This document shows positions 52,799-64,000 of a DNA stretch of 64,000 nucleotides, piece by piece. Positions within the stretch are counted from its first letter, which is position 1. Each line of letters opens with the position of its first letter. A program made the translations under genes and the position numbers. The DNA comes from an uncultured Ruminococcus sp. (GTDB lineage: Bacteria; Bacillota; Clostridia; Oscillospirales; Ruminococcaceae). The notes beneath the pieces are model-generated. The model made no database searches and was not told where the DNA came from. It was given only the letters and a program-made list of their open reading frames with translations. Location of the stretch: the NCBI GenBank assembly GCA_946413815.1, contig CAMKMD010000008.1, positions 1 through 64,000 of the forward strand, read 5' to 3'.

Positions 52799-54010
52799 AT
52801 GGCAAAGATAATCATGAAGACCCCCCTCGTCGAGATGGACGGCGACGAGATGACAAGGATCCTCTGGCAGTGGATCAAGGAGACACTGCTCGAGCCCTAT
52901 GTTGAGCTCAATACTGAGTACTACGACCTCGGCCTCAAGCACCGCGAGGAGACAAAGGATCAGGTGACACTTGATTCCGCCGAGGCTACAAAGAAGTACG
53001 GCGTAGCTGTCAAGTGTGCGACCATCACACCTAACGCAGCAAGAATGCCCGAGTACAACCTCACACAGATGTGGAAGTCACCCAACGGCACTATCCGTGC
53101 AGCTCTTGACGGAACCGTATTCAGAACTCCCATCATCGTTAAGGGCATCGAGCCCTACATCCCCACATGGACAAAGCCCATCACTATTGCACGTCATGCT
53201 TACGGTGACGTATACAAGAACACAGAGATGCGCGTAGCTCAGGGCAGCAAGGCCGAGCTCGTTGTTACCGATAAGGACGGAAACGAGACAAGAGAGCTGA
53301 TCCACGATTTCACAAAGTGCGACGGTATTATCCAGGGCCTTCACAACCTTGATGATTCCATTGCAGGCTTTGCAAGAGCATGCCTTAACTATGGCCTTGA
53401 TCTGAAGCAGGATGTATGGTTCGCTTCAAAGGACACTATTTCCAAGAAGTATGATCACCGCTTCAAGGATATCTTCCAGGAGATCTATGATAACGAGTAC
53501 AAGGAGAAGTACGAAGCTGCCGGCATAGAGTATTTCTACACTCTCATCGACGATGCAGTTGCAAGAGTTATCCGTTCCAACGGCGGCTATATCTGGGCCT
53601 GCAAGAACTATGACGGCGATGTTATGTCCGATATGGTATCCACAGCTTACGGCAGCCTTGCAATGATGACCTCTGTTCTTGTATCACCCGATGGTATCTA
53701 CGAGTATGAGGCAGCACACGGAACAGTACAGCGTCACTACTACAAGTACCTCAAGGGTGAGGAGACCTCCACCAACTCCGTTGCTACAATCTTCGCATGG
53801 AGCGGCGCTCTCCGCAAGAGAGGTGAGCTTGACGGCACACCTGAGCTCTGCGAGTTTGCAGACAAGCTTGAGAAGGCTACTATCCAGACCATCGAGGAAG
53901 GTGTTATGACAGGCGACCTGTACATGATCTCCAAGCTCGAGAACAAGAAGAAGGTAGATTCAAAGACCTTCCTCGACGAGATCAGAGCAAGACTCGACAA
54001 ATTAATGTAA
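52799..54010 (+). CDS. icd: NADP-dependent isocitrate dehydrogenase
   Basis: A 403-residue enzyme of the homodimeric type shared with eukaryotic cytosolic forms. It oxidises isocitrate to 2-oxoglutarate and makes NADPH. Motifs: [18 protein letters not shown] at the N-terminus, [39 protein letters not shown], the metal aspartates in [16 protein letters not shown], and [10 protein letters not shown] for NADP. SD CGGAGGT lies before ATG 52799. With aconitase upstream it forms the oxidative route to glutamate precursors. Confidence 0.96.
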
Positions 54011-54043: not shown

Positions 54044-54700
54044 ATGTCAAAAAACAGTATATCAAACTCAGTGATAAGGCGTCTTCCCAGATATCACCGT
54101 TTTCTCGGGGATCTTGAAGCCAACGGCTATGTGAGGATCTCCTCGAGGGAACTGGCTGAGAAGATGGGACTGACCGCTTCACAGATACGTCAGGACTTCA
54201 ACTGCTTCGGAGAATTCGGACAGCAGGGCTATGGCTACAATGTCAAGGAGCTTCGCGGAGAGATCGGAAAGATACTCGGACTCGATGTATCAACTCCGAT
54301 GATACTTCTCGGCGCAGGCAATCTCGGACGTGCCTTAGCCGCACACATCGATTTCCGCAACCGTGGTTTTGAGCTTATCGGTATATTCGATGCAAACCCT
54401 GCGGTAGTCGGAGACACTATAGGAGAGCTGTCTGTCAGATCTGTTGATGAGCTTGAAGCCTTCTGCACTCAGCACAGACCGGAAGCTGCTATACTCTGTA
54501 TCCCGAAGGGGGAGGCAGAGAAGGAGGCAGATCGTCTCATCAGCTACGGTGTCCGTGCATTCTGGAATTTTACACACTACGATCTTCGCATAAGTCACAA
54601 GGATGTAGCAGTCGAGAACGTGCATCTCGGTGACAGTCTTACCACGTTATCCTATGCCCTGTCCGGTATATCCGGAAAGGATAAAGAGGATAAGGAGTAA
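54044..54700 (+). CDS. rex: Redox-sensing repressor Rex
   Basis: A 218-residue Rex. The N-terminal winged helix (about 5-80; RLPRYHRFLGDL, SSRELAEKMGLTASQIRQDFNCFGEFG) is followed by a Rossmann domain with the NADH loop ILLGAGNLGRALA, FDANPAVVG, and ending WNFTHYDLRI. Rex leaves DNA when the NADH/NAD+ ratio is high and typically controls fermentation genes. It closes the acn-icd operon and precedes the fumarase/Hdr operon by about 540 bases; possible operators are noted at both promoters. Confidence 0.96.
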   Translation: MSKNSISNSVIRRLPRYHRFLGDLEANGYVRISSRELAEKMGLTASQIRQDFNCFGEFGQQGYGYNVKELRGEIGKILGLDVSTPMILLGAGNLGRALAAHIDFRNRGFELIGIFDANPAVVGDTIGELSVRSVDELEAFCTQHRPEAAILCIPKGEAEKEADRLISYGVRAFWNFTHYDLRISHKDVAVENVHLGDSLTTLSYALSGISGKDKEDKE

Positions 54701-55134
54701 CACAGGGGATTGATATCAGTGCCTGTGCAGAACGGCCATGCTGTACTGCACAGGTTCAATGTATTATAAAACTGTGAATTTTTTGTCAATCCATCACTAA
54801 CAATATATAGAATTCGGAATAGTCATATTCTGGATTTGAGCATTCATCAGCATCTTTCAGCGGATACTATCCATAATGCTGCGATCCTTACCATTAATTC
54901 TGCGCATTGATGATATGTACAATACTGACTGTATCATGCCGGATATGGTCAATTGTCACATTAATGCAAACCGTGTCAGGATATCATCAGCAAAACCGAC
55001 AGTATCGGGTGTAGATAATAACTTTTGATATAACTTATGATATGTTTGCAGACTTCCTGAGGAATGGGAATGTAGTCTGAAAACATTGTTAATAATATAT
55101 CAATTGCTGAATGCCCTTATTCTTAAACAGTATT
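54701..55134. other. Intergenic stretch before the fumarase operon
   Basis: AT-rich, with no supported gene. Near its start CCTGTGCAG and CTGCACAGG (about 54723-54757) form an inverted repeat without a T-run; it may end the rex transcript. Further on I see only a possible Rex box (55087-55104). Confidence 0.5.
55087..55104 (+). promoter_or_regulatory. Candidate Rex operator upstream of the fumarase/Hdr operon
   Basis: TTGTTAATAATATATCAA: full left half-site TTGTTAA, and right half ATATCAA with two mismatches to TTAACAA. It lies about 30 bases before the -35 box. Confidence 0.35.
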
Positions 55135-55162
55135 TGAAAACAGGCTCAGTTCCTGTTATAAT
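55135..55162 (+). promoter_or_regulatory. Promoter of the fumarase/Hdr/Flx operon
   Basis: TTGAAA (55135-55140), 16-bp spacer, TATAAT (55157-55162). Leader about 75 nt. Confidence 0.7.
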
Positions 55163-55243: not shown

Positions 55244-56620
55244 ATGGAATATCGTATCGAACATGATTCTATGGGCGAAGTCAGAGTGCCTGCCGATAAG
55301 TACTGGGCAGCACAGACCGAGAGAAGCCGTAACAATTTCCGCATCGGCAGCGGTATCGAGACCATGCCGAAGGAGATAATCAACGCCTTCGGTATCCTTA
55401 AAAGAGCAGCAGCTCTTGCAAATCACGATCTCAGACCTGAGAAGATGACCGACGAGAAGCTTGATGCAATCGTTGAAGCCTGCAGCGAGGTGGAGAGCCT
55501 TGAGCTTATCGATAACTTCCCGCTTGTTGTATGGCAGACCGGAAGCGGCACACAGTCGAATATGAATGCCAACGAGGTCATCGCCAACAGAGGAAACGAG
55601 ATCGCCGGAAAGAAGCTGCTCCACCCCAATGACGATATCAACATGAGCCAGTCCTCAAACGATACCTTCCCGACAGCAATGCACATCGCTGCTGTACTTT
55701 CCCTTGAGAACAAGGTGCTTCCCGCTATAGACGAGCTGGTGAAGACACTTCTGCGCCTTGAGGCAGAGAACGAAGGCATCGTAAAGAGCGGACGTACTCA
55801 TCTCCAGGATGCAACTCCCATAAAGTTTTCCCAGGAGATCAGCGGCTGGAGATCCTCCCTTGAAAAGGATAAGCGCATGATACAGCTTGCCTGCGATGAG
55901 CTGAAGGAACTGGCGCTGGGCGGTACAGCTGTAGGCACTGGCCTTAACGCTCCTGACGGCTTTGCAGAGAAGGCTGCTGCATACATCAGCCAGATCACCG
56001 GCATCGATTTCGTGACAGCTCCCAACAAGTTCCATTCACTCACATCAAAGGACGAGATAGTATTCGCTCACGGCGCCCTCAAAGGTCTTGCAGCTGATAT
56101 GATGAAGATAGCCAACGATGTAAGATGGCTGGCTTCCGGTCCGAGAGACGGCCTCGGCGAGATAACCATCCCTGAGAACGAGCCCGGTTCCTCCATCATG
56201 CCGGGTAAGGTAAACCCCACACAGTGCGAGCAGGTTACAATGGTAGCCGTACAGGTTATGGGCAACGATGTGGCAGTTGGTATGGCTGCTTCACAGGGCA
56301 ACTTCGAGCTTAATGTGTTCATGCCCGTATGCGCATATAACTTCCTCCAGTCTGCAAGACTCCTTGCTGAGTCTATCCTCTCCTTCAACTCCAACTGCGC
56401 AGTAGGCATCAAGGCAAACAAGGAAAAGATGCACCACAACCTCCATAACTCTCTTATGCTGGTCACAGCTCTAAATCCTTACATCGGCTACGAGAACGCT
56501 GCAAAGACCGCTAAGAAGGCATTCAAGGACAATATCTCCCTGAAGGAGGCCTGCGTGGAGCTTGGCTTCCTCACAGCTGAGAAGTTCGACGAGGTATTCC
56601 ACCCAGAGCAGATGGTCTGA
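55244..56620 (+). CDS. fumC: Class II fumarate hydratase
   Basis: A 458-residue fumarase of the Fe-independent class II type. It interconverts malate and fumarate. Motifs: GSGTQSNMNANEVIANR, HPNDDINMSQSSNDTFPTA, GRTHLQDATPI, GTAVGTGLNAP and the family signature GSSIMPGKVNPTQCEQ with the mobile-loop Ser. I choose ATG 55244 with GGGAG eight bases upstream; a GTG at 55235 is in frame. It is first in the operon, and hdrB starts 23 bases after its stop. This ties the redox genes downstream to fumarate metabolism. Confidence 0.96.
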   Translation: MEYRIEHDSMGEVRVPADKYWAAQTERSRNNFRIGSGIETMPKEIINAFGILKRAAALANHDLRPEKMTDEKLDAIVEACSEVESLELIDNFPLVVWQTGSGTQSNMNANEVIANRGNEIAGKKLLHPNDDINMSQSSNDTFPTAMHIAAVLSLENKVLPAIDELVKTLLRLEAENEGIVKSGRTHLQDATPIKFSQEISGWRSSLEKDKRMIQLACDELKELALGGTAVGTGLNAPDGFAEKAAAYISQITGIDFVTAPNKFHSLTSKDEIVFAHGALKGLAADMMKIANDVRWLASGPRDGLGEITIPENEPGSSIMPGKVNPTQCEQVTMVAVQVMGNDVAVGMAASQGNFELNVFMPVCAYNFLQSARLLAESILSFNSNCAVGIKANKEKMHHNLHNSLMLVTALNPYIGYENAAKTAKKAFKDNISLKEACVELGFLTAEKFDEVFHPEQMV

Positions 56621-56643
56621 TAAAACTGAAAGGAATCGTACAA

Positions 56644-57453
56644 ATGGAAAATAATGCGGTTTTCACATATTACCCCGGCTGTACGCTGAGGACGAAGGCT
56701 AAGGATCTCGATGCTTATGCAAGATCCTCTGCCGAAGCACTCGGCATCACACTGGTCGAGCCGGAGAACTGGCAGTGCTGCGGCGGTGCTTATACCACTG
56801 CGAAGGACGAGATCGCAACAAAGCTCTCAGCGGTCCGCACACTTATGGCTGCAAGAGACAGCGGTAGAGCACTTGTAACTGTCTGCTCCGCCTGTCATAA
56901 CGTAATAAAGCAGACTAACTATGATATTGCCCGTGACGAGGATATGGCACGCAAGGTGAACAGCTATATGCAGAACGAGACTCCCTATACAGGTGAGACT
57001 GCTGTATATCATTACCTTGAGCTTCTCCGTGACGTTATCGGCTTTGACAAGCTGAAGGCAGCCGTTGTTAATCCCCTCAAGGGAAAGAAGATAGCAGCAT
57101 ACTACGGCTGTCTCCTTCTTCGCCCCTCAAAGGCTCTTGCAATGGACGATCCCGAGAACCCTACAATCATGGAGGATTTCATCAGAGCCATCGGTGCCGA
57201 GCCTGTTATCTACGCACAGCGCAACGAGTGCTGCGGCGGTTATATAACTATGGAGGATAAGGCGCAGGCATCGAAGCGCAGCGCCTCCGTAATGGATTCG
57301 GCAAAGGATATGGGTGCTGATATGGTCATAACAGCCTGTCCGCTCTGCCTGTACAACCTGAAGAAGAATTCCGGTTCTGAGCTCCCGGTTTACTATTTCA
57401 CAGAGATCCTTGCAGAGGCTCTCGGACTGAAGAAGGAGGATACAGATGAGTGA
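56644..57453 (+). CDS. hdrB: Heterodisulfide reductase-type subunit B (CCG domain protein)
   Basis: A 269-residue protein with two complete CCG motifs: C in FTYYPGCTLRT, then CCGGAY (Cys45-46) and CSACHN; and CLLLRP, then CCGGY (Cys196-197) and CPLC. In methanogen HdrB these bind the unusual non-cubane [4Fe-4S] clusters that reduce the CoM-S-S-CoB disulfide. Clostridia lack those coenzymes, so the natural acceptor differs here. It has all cluster cysteines and so should be functional. First of the hdrBCA set, overlapping hdrC by eight bases. A direct role beside the fumarate reductase pair is my inference. Confidence 0.92.
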   Translation: MENNAVFTYYPGCTLRTKAKDLDAYARSSAEALGITLVEPENWQCCGGAYTTAKDEIATKLSAVRTLMAARDSGRALVTVCSACHNVIKQTNYDIARDEDMARKVNSYMQNETPYTGETAVYHYLELLRDVIGFDKLKAAVVNPLKGKKIAAYYGCLLLRPSKALAMDDPENPTIMEDFIRAIGAEPVIYAQRNECCGGYITMEDKAQASKRSASVMDSAKDMGADMVITACPLCLYNLKKNSGSELPVYYFTEILAEALGLKKEDTDE

Positions 57454-57829
57454 TAAGTTAAAGGAGCAGATACTCCGCTCCAGCGGCTCCAATGTACTTA
57501 AATGTATGCGCTGCGGCAAGTGCTCGGCTACCTGCCCCTCCTACGACGAGATGGAGTATCATCCTCACCAGTTTGTATACATGGTGGAAAAGGGCGATAT
57601 AGAGAAGCTTATGTCTTCTGATTCGCTTTATAAGTGCCTTACCTGCTTTGCCTGCGTGGACAGATGTCCGAGAGGCGTTGAGCCCGCAAAGGTAGTAGAG
57701 GCAGTTCGCCTTGCCGCAGTACGCAGGCAGGGCAATAACCACCTTGTGCCCACAGATATCCCCGGAATGCTCGATGATGATCTGCCGCAGCAGGCTATCG
57801 TCACAGCATTCAGAAAATACACGAAGTAA
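57446..57829 (+). CDS. hdrC: Heterodisulfide reductase-type subunit C (4Fe-4S)
   Basis: A 127-residue ferredoxin-type protein with two [4Fe-4S] motifs, CMRCGKCSATCP (about 20-31) and CLTCFACVDRCP (about 63-74). In HdrABC complexes it passes electrons between HdrA and HdrB. Length is shorter than many HdrC proteins but holds both motifs. It overlaps hdrB at the 5' end and precedes hdrA by 15 bases with GGAGGAG as SD. No membrane segment. Confidence 0.93.
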   Translation: MSDKLKEQILRSSGSNVLKCMRCGKCSATCPSYDEMEYHPHQFVYMVEKGDIEKLMSSDSLYKCLTCFACVDRCPRGVEPAKVVEAVRLAAVRRQGNNHLVPTDIPGMLDDDLPQQAIVTAFRKYTK

Positions 57830-57844
57830 GGAGGAGACTGAACT

Positions 57845-59836
57845 ATGCAGAGAATTGGAGTATTTGTCTGTCACTGCGGTACCAATATCGCCGCAACGGT
57901 AGACGTAAAGGCAGTTGCCGAAGCTCTCGGCCACGAGCCGGGCGTAGTCATCTCCCGGGAATACCAGTATATGTGTTCCGAGTCAGGACAGAACCTTGTA
58001 AAGGATGCGATCAGGGAGCATAACCTTACAGGTGTAGTTATCTGCTCCTGCTCACCGCGTATGCACGAGAACACATTCAGAAAGGCAGCAGCCGCTGCCG
58101 GTCTCAATCCTTACCTTGTGGAGATCGCCAACATCCGTGAGCAGTGCTCATGGATACACAAGGATATAGCCTCGGCTACAGAGAAGGCTGTCATCCTCGG
58201 TAAGGCAGCAGTAGCAAAGGTACATCTCAATGCACCTCTTATCGCAGGCGAGAGTCCGGTAGTCAAGAGAGCGCTTGTTATCGGCGGAGGTATCGCCGGC
58301 ATCCAGACCGCTCTTGATATCGCAGAGGCAGGCTTCGACGTTGATATCGTAGAAAAGCAGCCCACTATCGGCGGCAAGATGGCTCAGATAGACAAGACCT
58401 TCCCCACGCTTGACTGTGCCGCCTGTATCCTCACTCCTAAAATGGTTGAGGCCTCACAGAACGAGAAGATACATATCTACTCCTTCAGCGAGGTTACAGA
58501 CGTCAAGGGCTTTGTAGGAAACTTCACTGTTACCATAAAGCGCAAGGCTCGCTACGTTGATGAGACAAAGTGTACCGGCTGCGGACTCTGCACAGAGAAG
58601 TGCCCTATGAAGAAGGTACCCAACGAGTTCAATATGGGCCTTGACAACAGGACAGCTATTTACATCCCCTTTGCACAGGCAGTACCCAAGGTGGCAACTA
58701 TCGACCCCAACTACTGCATGATGATGAAGACGGGCAAGTGCGGTGTCTGCTCAAAGGTCTGCTCTGTAGGTGCTATCGACTACAAGCAGGAGGATAAGTT
58801 CATCGAGGAGAAATACGGTGCGATCGTAGTTGCCACCGGATTCAACCCAATAAATCTTGACAAGTACGACGAGTTCGCATACAACCAGTGTGCAGACGTT
58901 GTTACTTCTCTTGAACTGGAGAGACTGATGAATGCGGCCGGCCCCAACGGCGGTACGCTCCTCCGCCCCTCCGACAAGACTCATCCCCATACCATAGTAT
59001 TCGTGCAGTGCGTAGGCAGCCGCTGCGATGACGAGAAGGGCAAGCCCTACTGCTCGAAGATATGCTGTATGTATACTGCAAAGCACGCAATGCTCATACG
59101 TGAGAAATACCCCGATACCGAGGTATACGTATTCTATATAGATGTCCGTACTCCCGGCAAGAACTTCGACGAGTTCTACCGCCGTGCAGTTGAGCAGTAC
59201 AATGTTCACTACATCAAGGGCATGGTCGGCAAGGTTACACCTAAGTCCGACGGAAAGATAGACGTACAGGCATCAGACCTTATCGCAAACGAGCAGCTCC
59301 ATATCAATGCGGATATGGTAGTACTCGCAGCAGCCATTGAGCCTGACAAGACAGCACGTCCTCTTGCGACTATGCTCACCACACAGATGGACACAAATGA
59401 CTTCTTCACAGAGGCTCATCCGAAGCTCCGTCCCGTAGAGAGTGCAACAGCCGGTATCTTCCTCTCCGGTGCCTGCCAGGGTCCGAAGGATATCCCGGAG
59501 ACCGTAGCACAGGGAAGTGCCGCTGCCGCAAAGGCTATCGGACTTCTCTGCAAGAACAGTATCACCTGCAATCCCTGCGTGGCTCATTCCAACGAGCTTA
59601 TGTGCAACGGCTGCTCAGCCTGTGAGAAGGTATGCCCCTACGGCGCTATCACATATCAGGACAAGGAATTCAGGATGCCTGACAGGACTACAGCGATACG
59701 CCGTGTAGCAAGCGTCAATCCGGCAGTATGTCAGGGCTGCGGCGCTTGTACAGTTGCTTGTCCTTCGGGAGCAATGGATCTCAACGGCTTCTCTAACAGT
59801 CAGATAATGGCGGAGGTAGACGCAATATGCAAGTAA
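57845..59836 (+). CDS. hdrA: Heterodisulfide reductase-type subunit A, flavin iron-sulfur hub
   Basis: A 663-residue flavoprotein, the probable bifurcation site. FAD-binding loop RALVIGGGIAGIQTALDIAEA (about 143-162), HdrA-type LDCAACILTPKMVEA (about 192-206), then ferredoxin-like clusters CTGCGLCTEKCP and CGVCSKVCS in the middle and CNGCSACEKVCP and CQGCGACTVACP near the C-terminus. The N-terminal ~140 residues have the cysteine-rich HdrA insert (VCHCGTNIA, CSCSPRMHENTF). In known HdrABC-MvhAGD and FlxABCD-HdrABC complexes HdrA splits electron pairs between ferredoxin and a higher-potential acceptor. Overlaps flxD by ten bases. Confidence 0.94.
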   Translation: MQRIGVFVCHCGTNIAATVDVKAVAEALGHEPGVVISREYQYMCSESGQNLVKDAIREHNLTGVVICSCSPRMHENTFRKAAAAAGLNPYLVEIANIREQCSWIHKDIASATEKAVILGKAAVAKVHLNAPLIAGESPVVKRALVIGGGIAGIQTALDIAEAGFDVDIVEKQPTIGGKMAQIDKTFPTLDCAACILTPKMVEASQNEKIHIYSFSEVTDVKGFVGNFTVTIKRKARYVDETKCTGCGLCTEKCPMKKVPNEFNMGLDNRTAIYIPFAQAVPKVATIDPNYCMMMKTGKCGVCSKVCSVGAIDYKQEDKFIEEKYGAIVVATGFNPINLDKYDEFAYNQCADVVTSLELERLMNAAGPNGGTLLRPSDKTHPHTIVFVQCVGSRCDDEKGKPYCSKICCMYTAKHAMLIREKYPDTEVYVFYIDVRTPGKNFDEFYRRAVEQYNVHYIKGMVGKVTPKSDGKIDVQASDLIANEQLHINADMVVLAAAIEPDKTARPLATMLTTQMDTNDFFTEAHPKLRPVESATAGIFLSGACQGPKDIPETVAQGSAAAAKAIGLLCKNSITCNPCVAHSNELMCNGCSACEKVCPYGAITYQDKEFRMPDRTTAIRRVASVNPAVCQGCGACTVACPSGAMDLNGFSNSQIMAEVDAICK

Positions 59837-60273
59837 ATGAGAATACCAATTTTGAGCCTGTTATCGTTGCATTCTGCTGCAACTGGTGTTCATACGCCGG
59901 AGCTGATCTCTCAGGCACAAACAGACTCAACTATCCGACTAATGTCAAGATAATCAGAGTTCCCTGTTCATGCAGAGTGAACCCGATGTTCATACTCAGG
60001 GCATTCCAGAGAGGCGCTGACGGAGTTATCCTCTGCGGCTGCCACCCCGGAGACTGCCACTACACCTCAGGAAACTATTTCACACGCCGCAGGATAACCC
60101 TCCTGTACAGTATGCTTGATTTCCTCGGTATCGAGAGAGACAGAACAAGACTGGAATGGGTATCTGCTGCTGAGGGCGCAAAGTTTGCTGCTACAATGCA
60201 GGAATTCACCGATGCCGTAAGAAAGCTCGGCCCTAACCGGAGATTGGAGGATCTGAGATGCAGGAAGCAATGA
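59827..60273 (+). CDS. flxD: MvhD/FlxD-type [2Fe-2S] connector subunit
   Basis: A 148-residue protein of the MvhD family. Cluster cysteines lie in FCCNWCSYAGAD, VPCSCRVNP and CGCHPGDCHY, the usual pattern for the [2Fe-2S] electron entry subunit that docks on HdrA. In hydrogenase systems MvhD links the NiFe hydrogenase to HdrA; in Flx systems it links the NADH-oxidising subunits. No hydrogenase genes are in the operon, but Flx-like genes are, so the name flxD is preferred. Overlaps hdrA before and flxC after. Confidence 0.9.
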   Translation: MQVNENTNFEPVIVAFCCNWCSYAGADLSGTNRLNYPTNVKIIRVPCSCRVNPMFILRAFQRGADGVILCGCHPGDCHYTSGNYFTRRRITLLYSMLDFLGIERDRTRLEWVSAAEGAKFAATMQEFTDAVRKLGPNRRLEDLRCRKQ

Positions 60274-61238
60274 TAAATAAGGCAAAGCAGCTCCTGGCCG
60301 ATGGTACTGTCAACCGTGTCATGGGCTGGAAGAGGGGAGAGTTCGTGTACGACATCACTCCCGCTGTCTTTGAGACTGCTGAGGAGATCGATGCAGATTT
60401 CGTATGCGATGATTTCACCGCAGCCAACGTTTCAAAGTATCTTGTTAAAGAGAGCCGCAAGGAGGGAAAGATACTTGCCTTCCTGAAGCCCTGCGATACC
60501 TACAGCTTTAACCAGCTTGTCAAGGAGCACCGCATAGTCCGTGAAAACGTATACGTGGTAGGCATCCCCGGAGGCCCGAAGCTTGATGCAGAGAAGATAA
60601 AGGCAAAGGGTATAACCGGTATACTCTGCGTAAAGAACGAGAACGGCACACTTAAGATAGACACTCTCTACGGCGAGGAGACAATGCCTTACTACGAGGC
60701 CATCCTCGGCAAGTGTGAGACCTGCAAGAGCCGCAAGCACGTTGTATATGACGAGCTTATCGGCGAAGAGGGCGAGGTAATCACAGCAGAGGATTCCGGC
60801 CGCTTCGATATGGTAGAGAAGCTGGAGAACATGACTGCTCAGGAACGTTATGATTTCTGGAGGGAGCAGCTCTCCAAGTGTATCCGCTGCAACGCCTGCC
60901 GCAACGTATGTCCCGCCTGCACCTGTGAGAACTGCGTATTCGATAACCCGGCATCGGGCATATCCAACAAGGCAGCCGCAGACAGCTTCGAGGAGAATAT
61001 GTTCCACATCATCCGTGCCTTCCATGTTGCCGGACGCTGTACCGACTGTGGTGAGTGCTCAAGAGTATGTCCCCAGAACATACCGCTTCACCTCCTCAAC
61101 CGCAAGTTCATCAAGGACATCAACGCCTTCTACGGCGAGTATCAGGCAGGAGAGGACACCACATCAAGAGCTCCTCTCAACAACTATGACAAGGACGACT
61201 GCGAGCCTTCCATCGTACATGAAAGGGGTGTTGAGTGA
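60258..61238 (+). CDS. flxC: Iron-sulfur protein of the Flx module (FlxC-like)
   Basis: A 326-residue cytosolic protein. The N-terminal two thirds look like the beta-subunit-type domain of F420 hydrogenase/dehydrogenases (AFLKPCDTYSFNQLVKE, GIPGGPKLDAEKIKAKG), with CETCKSRKHVVYDELIGE in the middle. Two [4Fe-4S] motifs follow, CIRCNACRNVCP and CTDCGECSRVCP. In order and content it agrees with FlxC of the FlxABCD-HdrABC set described in Desulfovibrio; I assign the letter from gene order read backwards, so it is provisional. The Cys-rich CTCENC between motifs may hold another cluster. Confidence 0.75.
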   Translation: MQEAMINKAKQLLADGTVNRVMGWKRGEFVYDITPAVFETAEEIDADFVCDDFTAANVSKYLVKESRKEGKILAFLKPCDTYSFNQLVKEHRIVRENVYVVGIPGGPKLDAEKIKAKGITGILCVKNENGTLKIDTLYGEETMPYYEAILGKCETCKSRKHVVYDELIGEEGEVITAEDSGRFDMVEKLENMTAQERYDFWREQLSKCIRCNACRNVCPACTCENCVFDNPASGISNKAAADSFEENMFHIIRAFHVAGRCTDCGECSRVCPQNIPLHLLNRKFIKDINAFYGEYQAGEDTTSRAPLNNYDKDDCEPSIVHERGVE

Positions 61239-62257
61239 TGCTGAGAATACCCGTAGCAAAGTCAGATGAGCTGTTTGCAGCTATCGCTTCGCAGCAGACT
61301 CTCTACCTCCCCGCAGACCGTAAGGACGGCCAGGCAGAGTACAGAAAGTGGGAGGAGGGCGTGAAGCTCAGCAGCAGACTGAATACAGTCCGCTCCGCCA
61401 AGGACTTCTTCTTCCCTCAGACCGAGAACCTTGCCGAGTTCCGCATGGAGGGCAAGAAGATAGAGGTCATTGATATCCGGAAGGAATCAGAGGATTTCGT
61501 CATCTTCGGAGTAAGAGCCTGCGATGCACGCAGCTTTACGATCCTTGACAAGGTATACCTTGTTGATCCCGTTGATACCTTCTATCAGACACGCCGTGAG
61601 CACGGCACCGTAGTTACTATGGCCTGCACACGTCCTGCCGAGACCTGCTTCTGCCAGACCTTCGGCATCGATCCCACAGAGCCCGAGGGCGATGTATCAT
61701 GCTGGAGCGACGGAAGCTATTACTACTTCAGAGCAAATACCGACAAGGGACAGAAGTTCCTTGACTCCCTTTCCTCACTCCTCGAGGACGGCGATACAGC
61801 TGCTCTTGAAGAGACAAAGGCAAAGACAAAGGAGATACTTTCCAAGCTCCCGCTGGCTAAGGTATCAACAGAGAACTTCGGCGGCGACAAGCTGAACGAG
61901 TACTTCAGGTCCGAAAAGTGGGGAGAGCTCTCCGAGAGCTGCCTCGGCTGCGGAACCTGCACCTTTGTATGTCCCACCTGTCAGTGCTATGATATCAGGG
62001 ATTTTGACACAGGACACGGAATTCAGCGTTTCCGCTGCTGGGATTCCTGTATGTACTCAGACTTCACAAAGATGGCTCACGGAAACCCGAGACTTACACA
62101 GCTCGAGCGCTTCCGTCAGCGTTTCATGCACAAGCTTGTGTACTTCCCTGCAAACAACAACGGCGAGTTCGGCTGCGTAGGATGCGGAAGATGTCTTTCC
62201 AAGTGTCCTATATCCATGAACATCGTCAAGGTAATGAAGGCATTGGAGGAAAAGTGA
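61238..62257 (+). CDS. flxB: Iron-sulfur protein of the Flx module (FlxB-like, AsrA/HydB-type)
   Basis: A 339-residue protein that resembles anaerobic sulfite reductase subunit A and sulfhydrogenase beta subunits: FGVRACDARSFTILDKVYL (the Cys-Asp-x-Arg motif), ACTRPAETCFCQTFG, then [4Fe-4S] motifs CLGCGTCTFVCPTCQC and CVGCGRCLSKCP. These subunits pass electrons from the flavin/NAD(P)H subunit. ATG 61238 overlaps the flxC stop; GTG 61235 is also possible. The partner FAD/NAD subunit begins on its stop codon. Letter assigned by gene order. Confidence 0.8.
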   Translation: MLRIPVAKSDELFAAIASQQTLYLPADRKDGQAEYRKWEEGVKLSSRLNTVRSAKDFFFPQTENLAEFRMEGKKIEVIDIRKESEDFVIFGVRACDARSFTILDKVYLVDPVDTFYQTRREHGTVVTMACTRPAETCFCQTFGIDPTEPEGDVSCWSDGSYYYFRANTDKGQKFLDSLSSLLEDGDTAALEETKAKTKEILSKLPLAKVSTENFGGDKLNEYFRSEKWGELSESCLGCGTCTFVCPTCQCYDIRDFDTGHGIQRFRCWDSCMYSDFTKMAHGNPRLTQLERFRQRFMHKLVYFPANNNGEFGCVGCGRCLSKCPISMNIVKVMKALEEK

Positions 62258-63084
62258 TGAACAAGGATACATTGATCCCTTATATCGGCGTAGTTACTGA
62301 TATAAGGCAGGATACTCCCGATGTTAAGACCTTCAGGGTAGTATCACCGGAGGGCGGCAAGGTGTTCGAGCATATGCCCGGACAGTGTGCTATGCTTTCT
62401 ATACCGGGCGTTGGTGAGGGTATGTTCTCGATAACCTCCTCGCCCACGAACAAGGAATATATGGAGTTCTCCATCAAGAAATGCGGCTGCCTGACCACAT
62501 GGCTCCACGCCATGGATGTTGGCCAGCAGATAACCATAAGAGGACCTTACGGCAATCACTTCCCCGTAGAGACTGATCTCAAGGGCAAGGATCTGCTCTT
62601 CATCGCCGGCGGTATCGGTCTTGCACCTCTCCGCTCAGTTATCAACTATGTACGAGACAAGCGTGAGAACTACGGCGATATCCAGATAGTATACGGCTCC
62701 CGTTCCAAGGATGATCTTGTTGACTATCAGGAGATCATCGATGAATGGATGAAGGATGACGGTATACAGGTAAACCTCACCATAGACAACCCGCAGGAGG
62801 GCTGGGACGGTCATGTGGGCTTCGTACCGAACTACGTGAAGGAGCTCAATCCTTCACTCAGCAAGACCGTACTTATATGCGGCCCCCCGATCATGATAAA
62901 GTTCACCCTTGCAGGCCTCAAGGAGCTCGGCTTCACCGAGACACAGGTGTATACCACCATGGAGCTCCGCATGAAGTGTGCTGTCGGAAAATGCGGACGC
63001 TGCAACATCGGAAACAAGTATGTATGCAAGGACGGACCGGTATTCCGTTTCGACCAGCTGGGCGAGCTGCCTGATGAATACTAA
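62257..63084 (+). CDS. flxA: FAD/NAD(P)H-binding oxidoreductase subunit (FlxA-like)
   Basis: A 275-residue ferredoxin-reductase-type flavoprotein, starting at ATG 62257 on the flxB stop with GGAGGA upstream. The FAD-binding barrel has CAMLSIPGVGEGMFSITSSP with the R-x-S-like site changed; the NAD(P) lobe has IRGPYGNHFP, DLLFIAGGIGLAPLRS and VLICGPPIMIKFT; a C-terminal PyrK-type [2Fe-2S] site is in CAVGKCGRCNIGNKYVC. Relatives are PyrK, sulfhydrogenase gamma and AsrB. It would take electrons from NADH for the Hdr module. NADH versus NADPH preference cannot be told. Confidence 0.88.
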   Translation: MNKDTLIPYIGVVTDIRQDTPDVKTFRVVSPEGGKVFEHMPGQCAMLSIPGVGEGMFSITSSPTNKEYMEFSIKKCGCLTTWLHAMDVGQQITIRGPYGNHFPVETDLKGKDLLFIAGGIGLAPLRSVINYVRDKRENYGDIQIVYGSRSKDDLVDYQEIIDEWMKDDGIQVNLTIDNPQEGWDGHVGFVPNYVKELNPSLSKTVLICGPPIMIKFTLAGLKELGFTETQVYTTMELRMKCAVGKCGRCNIGNKYVCKDGPVFRFDQLGELPDEY

Positions 63085-63096
63085 GGAGGAGCTATC

Positions 63097-63780
63097 ATGG
63101 AAAAGATGTTAAACGTTTACCTGTTCGGCAAGAAGTATGAAGTGCCGGCAGGACTGACTATAATGACTGCTATGGAGTACGCAGGCTATGAACTCGTTAG
63201 AGGCTGCGGATGCCGCAACGGCTTCTGCGGTGCCTGTGCTACTATCTACAGGATCAAGGGACAGGTAGAGCTCCACGGATGTCTTGCCTGTCAGACAGAG
63301 ATCGAAGAGGGTATGTACGTTGCTACGCTTCCTTTCTTCCCGCTTGAGAAGAGGGTATACAATATCGAGGAGATAAAGCCGGATCAGCAGATCATGATGC
63401 AGCTCTATCCCGAGATATACAGCTGTATCGGCTGCAACGCCTGTACAAAGGCCTGCACTCAGGAGCTGAACGTTATGCAGTACATCGCCTACGCTCAGAG
63501 AGGCGAGTATGAGAAGTGCGCCGAGGAGAGCTTTGACTGCGTAATGTGCGGAGTATGTTCATCACGCTGCCCCGCAGGCATCTCACATCCTCAGGTAGCA
63601 ATGCTCGCACGCCGTCTCAACGGTAAGTACATCGCACCCGAGTGCGGACATCTTGCTGACAGGGTCAACGAGATCAACGAGGGCATCTATGACGACAAGA
63701 TGGCTGAGCTTATCGGCAAGTCCATCGACAACGTACAGGAGCTCAAGGATATGTACAACAACCGCGAGATCGAGAAGTAA
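63097..63780 (+). CDS. Fumarate reductase/succinate dehydrogenase-like iron-sulfur subunit
   Basis: A 227-residue protein. The N-terminal ~90 residues form a plant-type [2Fe-2S] ferredoxin fold (GCGCRNGFCGACATI, then CLACQTEI). The C-terminal part has two 4Fe-type motifs, CIGCNACTKACTQ and CVMCGVCSSRCP. This plan matches SdhB/FrdB, and the N-terminal part of methanogen thiol:fumarate reductase TfrB, but lacks TfrB's CCG domain, which here is supplied by hdrB. There are no membrane helices. It lies 12 bases after flxA and just before the flavoprotein subunit, with SD AAGGAGGAG. Confidence 0.85.
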   Translation: MEKMLNVYLFGKKYEVPAGLTIMTAMEYAGYELVRGCGCRNGFCGACATIYRIKGQVELHGCLACQTEIEEGMYVATLPFFPLEKRVYNIEEIKPDQQIMMQLYPEIYSCIGCNACTKACTQELNVMQYIAYAQRGEYEKCAEESFDCVMCGVCSSRCPAGISHPQVAMLARRLNGKYIAPECGHLADRVNEINEGIYDDKMAELIGKSIDNVQELKDMYNNREIEK

Positions 63781-63794
63781 GGAGGGGAGAGACT

Positions 63795-64000
63795 ATGTAC
63801 AAGATAGACAGATTCAATGAGCTGGCAAAGAAGGTCGCTGCCAAGAGAGCCGAGAACGCTGCTCTTGAGCCCAGAAGAATGACAGCCGAAGAGAAGGACG
63901 CTCTCCTTGCAGAGTTCCACCCCGACTATAAGCAGGGCGAGTTCACCGTCCTCACAGCCGGCCCCAACAAGGGGGAGAAGGTGCCTACACAGCTGGCTGA
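63795..64000 (+). CDS. FAD-binding fumarate reductase/succinate dehydrogenase-like flavoprotein, 3' truncated
   Basis: ATG 63795 follows GGAGGGGAG and is open to the window edge, so only the first 68 residues are seen. The N-terminal lead with MTAEEKDALLAEFHPDY and GPNKGEKVPTQLA resembles, as I remember it, the start of clostridial FAD-binding fumarate reductase/succinate dehydrogenase flavoproteins, in which the FAD Rossmann motif comes a few dozen residues later. That motif and the catalytic residues are beyond the window, so the call rests on this lead and on the FrdB-like neighbour. Substrate assignment is therefore inference. Confidence 0.7.
   Translation, partial: MYKIDRFNELAKKVAAKRAENAALEPRRMTAEEKDALLAEFHPDYKQGEFTVLTAGPNKGEKVPTQLA

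Follow-up and report, generated by a model that had tools for sequence, protein, structure and literature searches.

The FlxABCD-HdrABC system of Desulfovibrio vulgaris consists of the same seven kinds of subunit that are encoded, between a fumarase and a fumarate reductase-like pair (FrdAB), on a 64,000-base stretch of DNA from an uncultured Ruminococcus sp., namely bases 1-64,000 of contig CAMKMD010000008.1 (87,926 bases; hereafter C8), to which we refer as the window and in which the gene cluster begins at position 55244. According to our relatives scan, the closest named relatives of the genome belong to Ruminococcus, with R. flavefaciens among them. Unlike in the Desulfovibrio system, the high-potential branch probably ends here in the linked FrdBA and the cluster opens with a fumarate-forming gene. 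Other described systems resemble the locus in part. The HdrABC complexes of methanogens (5odc, 8rvu, 7bkb) have a homologous HdrA, HdrB and MvhD-like connector, whereas here the donor module is Flx and the probable acceptor is fumarate, through FrdBA. The methanogen TfrAB is similar in that the best NCBIfam model for FrdA is the archaeal TfrA and in that the TfrB model is matched piecewise by FrdB, HdrC and HdrB; nevertheless, the TfrB parts occur here as individual subunits, HdrA and Flx come in addition, and the FrdA score is 338.9 bits where the TfrA cut-off is 718. Finally, the 8-methylmenaquinol:fumarate reductase SdhABE likewise has an HdrB-like protein, SdhE, beside a fumarate reductase pair and SdhE is indeed the top model for the HdrB encoded here, but the score (143.4 bits, with HdrB's own model close behind at 141.8) lies far under the SdhE cut-off of 500 and nothing here points to a link with a membrane or a quinone.

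The 'succinate operon' of Pseudoclostridium thermosuccinogenes, as described in the available excerpts of a 2020 paper (PMC7282089), encodes a fumarate hydratase, Flx-Hdr, a fumarate reductase and a possible succinate transporter; the same excerpts propose ferredoxin-coupled fumarate reduction for it and report an approximately 4-fold increase of the operon under CO2 limitation that was not significant for every subunit. Compared by description, without alignment of the sequences, the kinds of genes and the proposal are the same as here and the organism is different. The first-pass annotation of the window had stated that no characterised example was known; none was found in the literature we searched either, but the proposal itself was already in print for P. 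thermosuccinogenes (PMC7282089, in the excerpts available). The idea is not new, and the Ruminococcus cluster is a further member of a proposed, unproven kind. Reportedly, a 2019 preprint, cited by the 2020 paper, presents the same kind of 'succinate operon' and the same proposal. What is added here to the excerpted parts of the 2020 paper, i.e. the distribution, the swaps of the leading gene, the Rex site and the survey of partners, may in part be contained in that preprint.

The window and its continuation hold a contiguous fumarase-HdrABC-FlxABCD-FrdAB gene set on one strand, in the order fumC-hdrB-hdrC-hdrA-flxD-flxC-flxB-flxA-frdB-frdA, with neighbouring genes that overlap or sit at most 23 bases apart. 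On the basis of the analyses below we consider it rather probable that this cluster encodes a soluble NADH:fumarate/ferredoxin oxidoreductase, FlxABCD-HdrABC-FrdAB. Nine of the genes are whole in the window and all lie on the plus strand. The class II fumarase gene fumC (55244..56620; the listed open reading frame opens earlier, at GTG 55235) scores 701.4 bits to TIGR00979, against a cut-off of 664.75, and has the domains Lyase_1 and FumaraseC_C. It is followed by hdrB (56644..57453; PF02754), whose product has two CCG domains with ten cluster cysteines and is related to solved HdrB chains, by hdrC (57446..57829; two [4Fe-4S], Fer4_8, TIGR03290 at 69 bits with a cut-off of 160) and by hdrA (57845..59836), which encodes a flavin adenine dinucleotide (FAD) and iron-sulfur (Fe-S) subunit with a candidate bifurcating flavin site (HdrA2 model; 5odc_A). 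Then come flxD, for an MvhD-like connector (59827..60273; PF02662, 183.7 bits), the genes of an FlxC-like Fe-S protein with a 4Fe-4S dicluster domain (60258..61238) and of an FlxB-like Fe-S protein of the sulfhydrogenase beta or AsrA type (61235..62257; NF040829, 9nez_B), and flxA (62257..63084, the listed reading frame opening upstream of the chosen start, at 62182), for an FAD/NAD(P)H module with a [2Fe-2S] cluster (NAD_binding_1, FAD_binding_6, DHODB_Fe-S_bind). The gene frdB (63097..63780; Fer2_4, Fer4_7; 9eri_C) precedes that of the flavoprotein, frdA, which crosses the window end (63795..64000 in the window; whole gene C8:63795-65399, i.e. L003:9796-11400; 534 amino acids; FAD_binding_2, 239 bits). 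Positions and strand of fumC, HdrABC, the MvhD/FlxD connector, the Flx subunits, frdB and the start of frdA are as the first-pass annotation had them, its claim of a complete HdrABC holds in that HdrB carries both CCG sets with their ten cysteines, and beyond 64 kilobases (kb) the contig does go on and completes frdA.

The linkage of these genes is conserved. Among the best 80 of at least 560 named relatives, where a gene was counted as missing only if the contig had room for it, HdrB, HdrC and HdrA were each present in 62 of 62, FlxD in 70 of 70, FlxC in 71 of 71, FlxB in 75 of 75, FlxA in 77 of 77 and FrdB in 78 of 78, and the transporter gene that follows frdA in 48 of 62; R. flavefaciens FD-1 has the full cluster plus the transporter. 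Chance adjacency was rejected because gene order is conserved in relatives: the Hdr, Flx and FrdB genes are never missing from this sample where there is room, and the order recurs elsewhere. The recurrence of the adjacency, for which the first-pass annotation suggested a search, extends over Ruminococcus, other Clostridia and a Fusobacteriota strain, Ilyobacter polytropus, whose plasmid pILYOP01 carries HdrBCA-FlxDCBA-FrdBA in identical order at 43-67% identity. Within the family to which the window belongs, an FrdA of at least 70% identity occurs in 18 of 148 genomes (once in two fragments), the other FrdA matches, in 82 genomes, being mostly of about 36% identity or less and NadB-like or other flavoproteins; HdrA occurs in 15 of the 148, all of them within those 18, and in the remaining three the contig that carries FrdA breaks off within the cluster. 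In 391 Clostridia genomes both HdrA and FrdA were found in 53, only HdrA in four, only FrdA in one and neither in 333 (Fisher p 1.5e-59, not corrected for kinship). Three of the four genomes with HdrA only have it at 43-47% identity and one genome is 62% complete, and the single genome with FrdA only is 75% complete. In the class and phylum searches up to three candidates were scored per genome; neighbours were fetched in 22 of the 53 other class-level genomes with FrdA and, at the phylum level, at all 39 places in 38 genomes, and the set of named loci partly overlaps the other genome sets, so that the sets are not independent. A record titled uncultured Treponema sp. (L128) contains the whole fumC-Hdr-Flx-FrdBA cluster with an FrdA that is 80% identical, by gene transfer or as a mis-binned contig.

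The leading gene varies. Of the 59 close named relatives with room (same sample as above), 58 have fumC in this place, as do 7 of 20 class-level loci; no fumC was found in the other 13 class-level loci, which have the full Hdr-Flx-FrdBA set. The gene upstream of hdrB was examined in 8 of these 13, and in four of them (L246, L247, L260 and L261) it belongs to the lactate/malate dehydrogenase family. The encoded enzymes pass the cut-off of the NCBIfam L-lactate dehydrogenase model and have the specificity loop RKPGQ[TS]R or RKAGQSR; they are probably malate dehydrogenases, because arginine stands at the specificity position where lactate dehydrogenase has glutamine. In I. polytropus the place of fumC is taken by the gene of an aspartate ammonia-lyase (681.5 bits to the subfamily model, cut-off 510; 647.7 bits to the aspA equivalog model, just below its cut-off of 681.2). 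Fumarase, aspartase and the probable malate dehydrogenase are all on the path to fumarate, and fumarate is therefore likely the substrate, although some copies of the cluster have no such neighbour.

All six fumarate-site residues of E. coli FrdA (3p4p), whose numbers we take to be H232, E245, R248, R287, H355 and R390, are kept in the alignment to FrdA, as H319, E336, R339, R360, H432 and R466, and they are conserved in 76 of 76 FrdA sequences, i.e. those of 59 of the 60 distant loci described below (L219 was dropped) and 17 others, the window included; the completed flavoprotein, of which the first-pass annotation had only the beginning, thus has six of six. The position of the histidine for covalent FAD, presumably a feature of membrane-linked Frd/Sdh members, is N128 in FrdA and asparagine in 76 of 76, as expected for a soluble, non-covalent type. 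FrdA has approximately 90 extra N-terminal residues, and its match to the Sdh/Frd/Tfr models ends before their C-terminal part. The candidate identity of an L-aspartate oxidase (NadB) was rejected: the E121 site, for which we assume glutamate in NadB, is H in 72, F in 3 and K in 1 of the 76 and never Glu. A separate protein of the genome, at C69, has NadB as its best model (451.7 bits, cut-off 472). Another FAD_binding_2 protein of 554 amino acids (C15:56221-57672, L036) bears a distant resemblance to vinyl phenol reductase and flavocytochrome c; that it would be a fumarate reductase is not evident, as no NCBIfam cut-off is reached and the best model, vinyl phenol reductase, gives 159 of 600 bits. 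FrdB consists of a [2Fe-2S] domain and an RnfC-like domain with two [4Fe-4S] clusters (9eri_C), with all twelve cluster cysteines in 73 of 73 sequences (57 of the 60 distant loci and 16 others). The earlier description of a fumarate-reductase-like Fe-S subunit holds insofar as it is an Fe-S protein beside FrdA, but not in the sense of a classical SdhB/FrdB, since TIGR00384 gives only 28.6 bits (cut-off 88) and the second half is an RnfC-type dicluster. Domain and NCBIfam model searches found no CCG domain in FrdB itself.

No cytochrome b subunit was found beside FrdA. An anchor gene was found neither within nor adjoining the cluster, and the Sdh-type cytochrome b family PF01127 has 0 matches in the genome, which is 95.6% complete (PF02300 and PF02313 were not searched); a classical membrane-linked Frd was rejected on these two grounds. 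At C8:65494-66711, 94 bases after frdA, lies the gene of an AspT/YidE-family permease (PF06826, 405 residues), separated from frdA by a hairpin that has no T run on the coding strand. An Rfam scan of the window gave nothing at gathering score. The AspT-type permease family includes succinate exporters. The genome further encodes RnfC, RnfD and an [FeFe] group A6 hydrogenase. With standard potentials, the reduction of fumarate by NADH comes to about -68 kJ/mol, compared with +19 to +35 kJ/mol for that of ferredoxin.

With respect to the electron path, HdrA is full length, with 698 bits to the methanogen chain 5odc_A; its best NCBIfam model is HdrA2 (797.5 bits, under the cut-off of 1100), the end part of which corresponds here to the separate flxD (FlxD covers model positions 640-774). 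The position of the flavin-site lysine is kept, since K413 aligns with K409 of the 5odc chain, which we take to be this lysine. According to the excerpts available of PMC6405883, a lysine holds the proposed bifurcating FAD of HdrA. FlxB (171 bits to NF040829, under the cut-off of 690; 9nez_B, E 2.1e-42) and FlxA (9nez_C, E 5.1e-56) match sulfhydrogenase beta and gamma chains, respectively. Three subunits give weak matches to parts of the 488-position TfrB model, namely FrdB to positions 19-92 (36.5 bits), HdrC to 131-220 (30.3) and HdrB to 263-487 (44.0); a natural protein therefore holds the same modules, which hints at a direct path of electrons from HdrB to FrdB. Because TfrB and the fumarate reductases of the SdhE type offer precedents for transfer between HdrB-like and FrdB-like parts, we assign FrdBA to the high-potential branch of HdrABC. 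In the proposed mechanism FlxA would accept hydride from NADH, FlxB and FlxC and then FlxD would carry the electrons to the FAD of HdrA, and the electrons would split there, one branch running over the HdrA clusters to ferredoxin and the other via HdrC, HdrB and the FrdB clusters to the FAD of FrdA and on to fumarate supplied by the adjacent fumarase. Succinate may leave through the transporter next door, and reduced ferredoxin could serve Rnf or the hydrogenase. Of the earlier proposal that NADH oxidation drives both fumarate and ferredoxin reduction, the part that is well supported by genomics (linkage, site residues, no Sdh-type anchor found) is that FrdAB, HdrABC and FlxABCD would act together on fumarate; electron bifurcation, NADH rather than NADPH as the donor, ferredoxin as the second acceptor, a physical complex, the electron path and the direction are inferred.

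The regulatory region is consistent with NADH as the donor, to which the FAD/NAD-binding domains of FlxA also point. Upstream of fumC lies rex (54044..54700, plus strand), for an NADH/NAD+-sensing repressor (NCBIfam Rex equivalog NF003990, 280.9 bits, cut-off 233), and between them, at 55086..55103 on the plus strand, the putative Rex operator TTGTTAATAATATATCAA, which matches the presumed consensus TTGTTAANNNNTTAACAA at 12 of 14 positions (2 mismatches) and stands before a strong sigma-70-like promoter match, TTGAAA-17-TATAAT (55134..55162, plus strand; 11 of 12 matches, TG before the second hexamer), the best of 15 promoter matches in L003:600-13400 (shuffle mean 11.5). Taken alone the operator is weak evidence, the window having four such sites where 1.95 are expected and 12 of 100 shuffles reaching four. 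The scan for the site covered 70 upstream regions, that of the window and those of 69 among 96 loci; of the others, 24 lacked a close match to fumC and 3 had an upstream part that was too short. A score of at least 12 was found in 13 of these 70 regions, the mean for permuted palindromes being 0.62, with 3 of the 200 permutations reaching 13; 21 of the 70 reach 11 of 14, and 6 of 200 permuted palindromes do equally well, the control being strict in that permuted half-sites can come near the true one. Eleven of the 13 high-scoring sites, in Ruminococcus relatives, have the common form TTGTTAANNNTATATCAA with a varying centre. A Rex at least 70% identical, on the same strand and at most 1 kb upstream of fumC, is present in 22 of 63 relatives with room; 7 of the others show just a 30-32% Rex match elsewhere and 34 none. 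Gene and operator-like site are both kept in part of the Ruminococcus relatives. Upstream of rex, the window has a gene for an NADP-dependent isocitrate dehydrogenase (52799-54010).

Several observations weigh against a bifurcating fumarate reductase. The matches to TfrB are far under the model cut-off of 385, and FlxC matches the HdrC part as well. All ten cysteines of the disulfide-reducing site of HdrB are kept in 40 of 40 sequences (two full CCG sets; the window and the 39 distant loci whose HdrB match was usable and scored 70 bits or more), so that the acceptor may be a disulfide. For the other four of the eight upstream genes examined, no connection with fumarate is apparent: one encodes a BNR-repeat protein and one a response regulator, and the remaining two matched no family at the limit applied. 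FrdBA can dispense with Hdr: among 60 distant FrdBA loci, 19 have no Hdr gene nearby, four of these (L207, L211, L228, L239) with less than 3.3 kb of sequence upstream; downstream, about 1 to 3.8 kb was covered. HdrA was searched in 24 chosen genomes: it was found in 7 of 7 with Hdr beside FrdBA, and of the 17 searched (out of 18) that have an Hdr-less FrdBA locus it was absent from 4 and encoded elsewhere in 13. On a Pseudoroseomonas plasmid, FrdBA (FrdA 45% identical) adjoins a NuoF-like gene (L272:3911-7514; L271:4001-6237). A search of the genome for the ATP-type phosphoenolpyruvate carboxykinase was negative (the GTP type was not looked for), no biochemical test of such a complex was found in the open-access literature searched, and high fumarate reductase transcription was not observed for two ruminococci in sheep, in the available portion of PMC8092306.

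The alternative that survives best, although we consider it unlikely, is a non-bifurcating NADH:fumarate reductase, in which FlxABCD and HdrABC merely wire NADH to FrdAB and no ferredoxin is reduced. It draws on the other or simpler partners of FrdBA, such as the NuoF-like protein, and on the four genomes without HdrA; the full-length HdrA with its kept flavin-site lysine position speaks for bifurcation instead, and without it the drop of about 68 kJ/mol would go to waste. Less likely again is that HdrABC-FlxABCD reduces some disulfide with NADH while FrdAB, merely co-transcribed, is a separate or thiol-driven fumarate reductase. The kept HdrB cysteines would suit this, as would the Desulfovibrio Flx-Hdr, which to our knowledge is described without FrdAB, but FrdB has no CCG domain of its own for thiol oxidation, HdrA and FrdA nearly always occur together among the 391 Clostridia genomes, and the cluster is led by a fumarase gene, an aspartase gene or, at four loci, the gene of a probable malate dehydrogenase. 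The reverse direction, i.e. succinate oxidation powered by electron confurcation, is in principle open to a reversible enzyme family and would agree with the 2-oxoacid:ferredoxin oxidoreductase gene next to FrdBA at L209, but it is very improbable given the fumarase and the permease as neighbours in Ruminococcus, the latter of a family that includes succinate exporters, and given that P. thermosuccinogenes, with the same kind of operon, produces succinate according to the excerpts of the 2020 paper.

The preferred reading, a soluble NADH:fumarate/ferredoxin oxidoreductase, can be placed in a wider FrdBA family, which stands beside HdrB and HdrC in at least four arrangements. The 60 distant loci comprise, apart from the Hdr-less ones, 21 with HdrABC-FlxABCD-FrdBA, 11 with Hdr genes and FlxD before FrdBA, 5 with FrdBA-HdrBCA and 4 with HdrCB-FrdBA. 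Two of the 11 are cut by the contig, and L209 and L217, whose middles were examined, hold a large flavoprotein. The one in L209 (L209:6984-10262) has 1092 residues, contains two flavoprotein modules that resemble HdrA, and is flanked by HdrA and an FlxD-like gene; a frame of 471 amino acids is an FlxC-type Fe-S protein, with its called start upstream, inside the FlxD frame, no match to FlxA or FlxB was found in the cluster, and the gene adjoining FrdBA is the 2-oxoacid:ferredoxin oxidoreductase gene already mentioned. In a quick tree of the 76 FrdA sequences, with support from the Shimodaira-Hasegawa-like approximate likelihood ratio test (SH-aLRT) only, 37 of the 38 rows of the HdrABC-FlxABCD-FrdBA class fall on one side, along with four Hdr-less rows, while L233 falls apart from its class, among the others; the group with HdrCBA and FlxD (10 rows) and the FrdBA-HdrBCA group (5 rows) each form one side of a branch. 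At one locus each, FrdBA is beside or near a gene for class I fumarase, aspartase, malic enzyme or pyruvate carboxylase. Further relatives of FrdBA were seen in records of Cupriavidus and other Burkholderiales (FrdA 47-49%). Directly after FrdBA, L240 has a gene for a cytochrome b561-type protein with a 4Fe-4S domain (L240:2027-3013), possibly a membrane-linked variant, and L219, with no Hdr gene nearby, has one for an FMN-binding 4Fe-4S protein near FrdBA (L219:5858-6790).

These arrangements suggest, tentatively and somewhat short of what we would call probable, that these fumarate reductases form a plug-in family built around FrdBA as a soluble core, with HdrC-HdrB as a frequent socket and an exchangeable donor, and that the Flx-type member gives ruminococci and their kin a route to succinate that is controlled by Rex, conserves energy and has no membrane step. 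In gut Clostridia and Ilyobacter the donor would be NADH, via Flx and with bifurcation; in another lineage of the same phylum as the Clostridia it would be a doubled HdrA-like flavoprotein, with neither FlxA nor FlxB, and in Pseudoroseomonas the NuoF-like protein, possibly a direct NADH-linked form.

The wide and clean linkage, together with the existence of cultured carriers (R. flavefaciens FD-1, I. polytropus and P. thermosuccinogenes), makes the proposal directly testable. If it is true, fumarate becomes another high-potential acceptor of flavin-based electron bifurcation, and gut Clostridia would conserve energy in the formation of succinate without quinones or a membrane reductase, which would matter for how succinate and H2 are balanced in the rumen.

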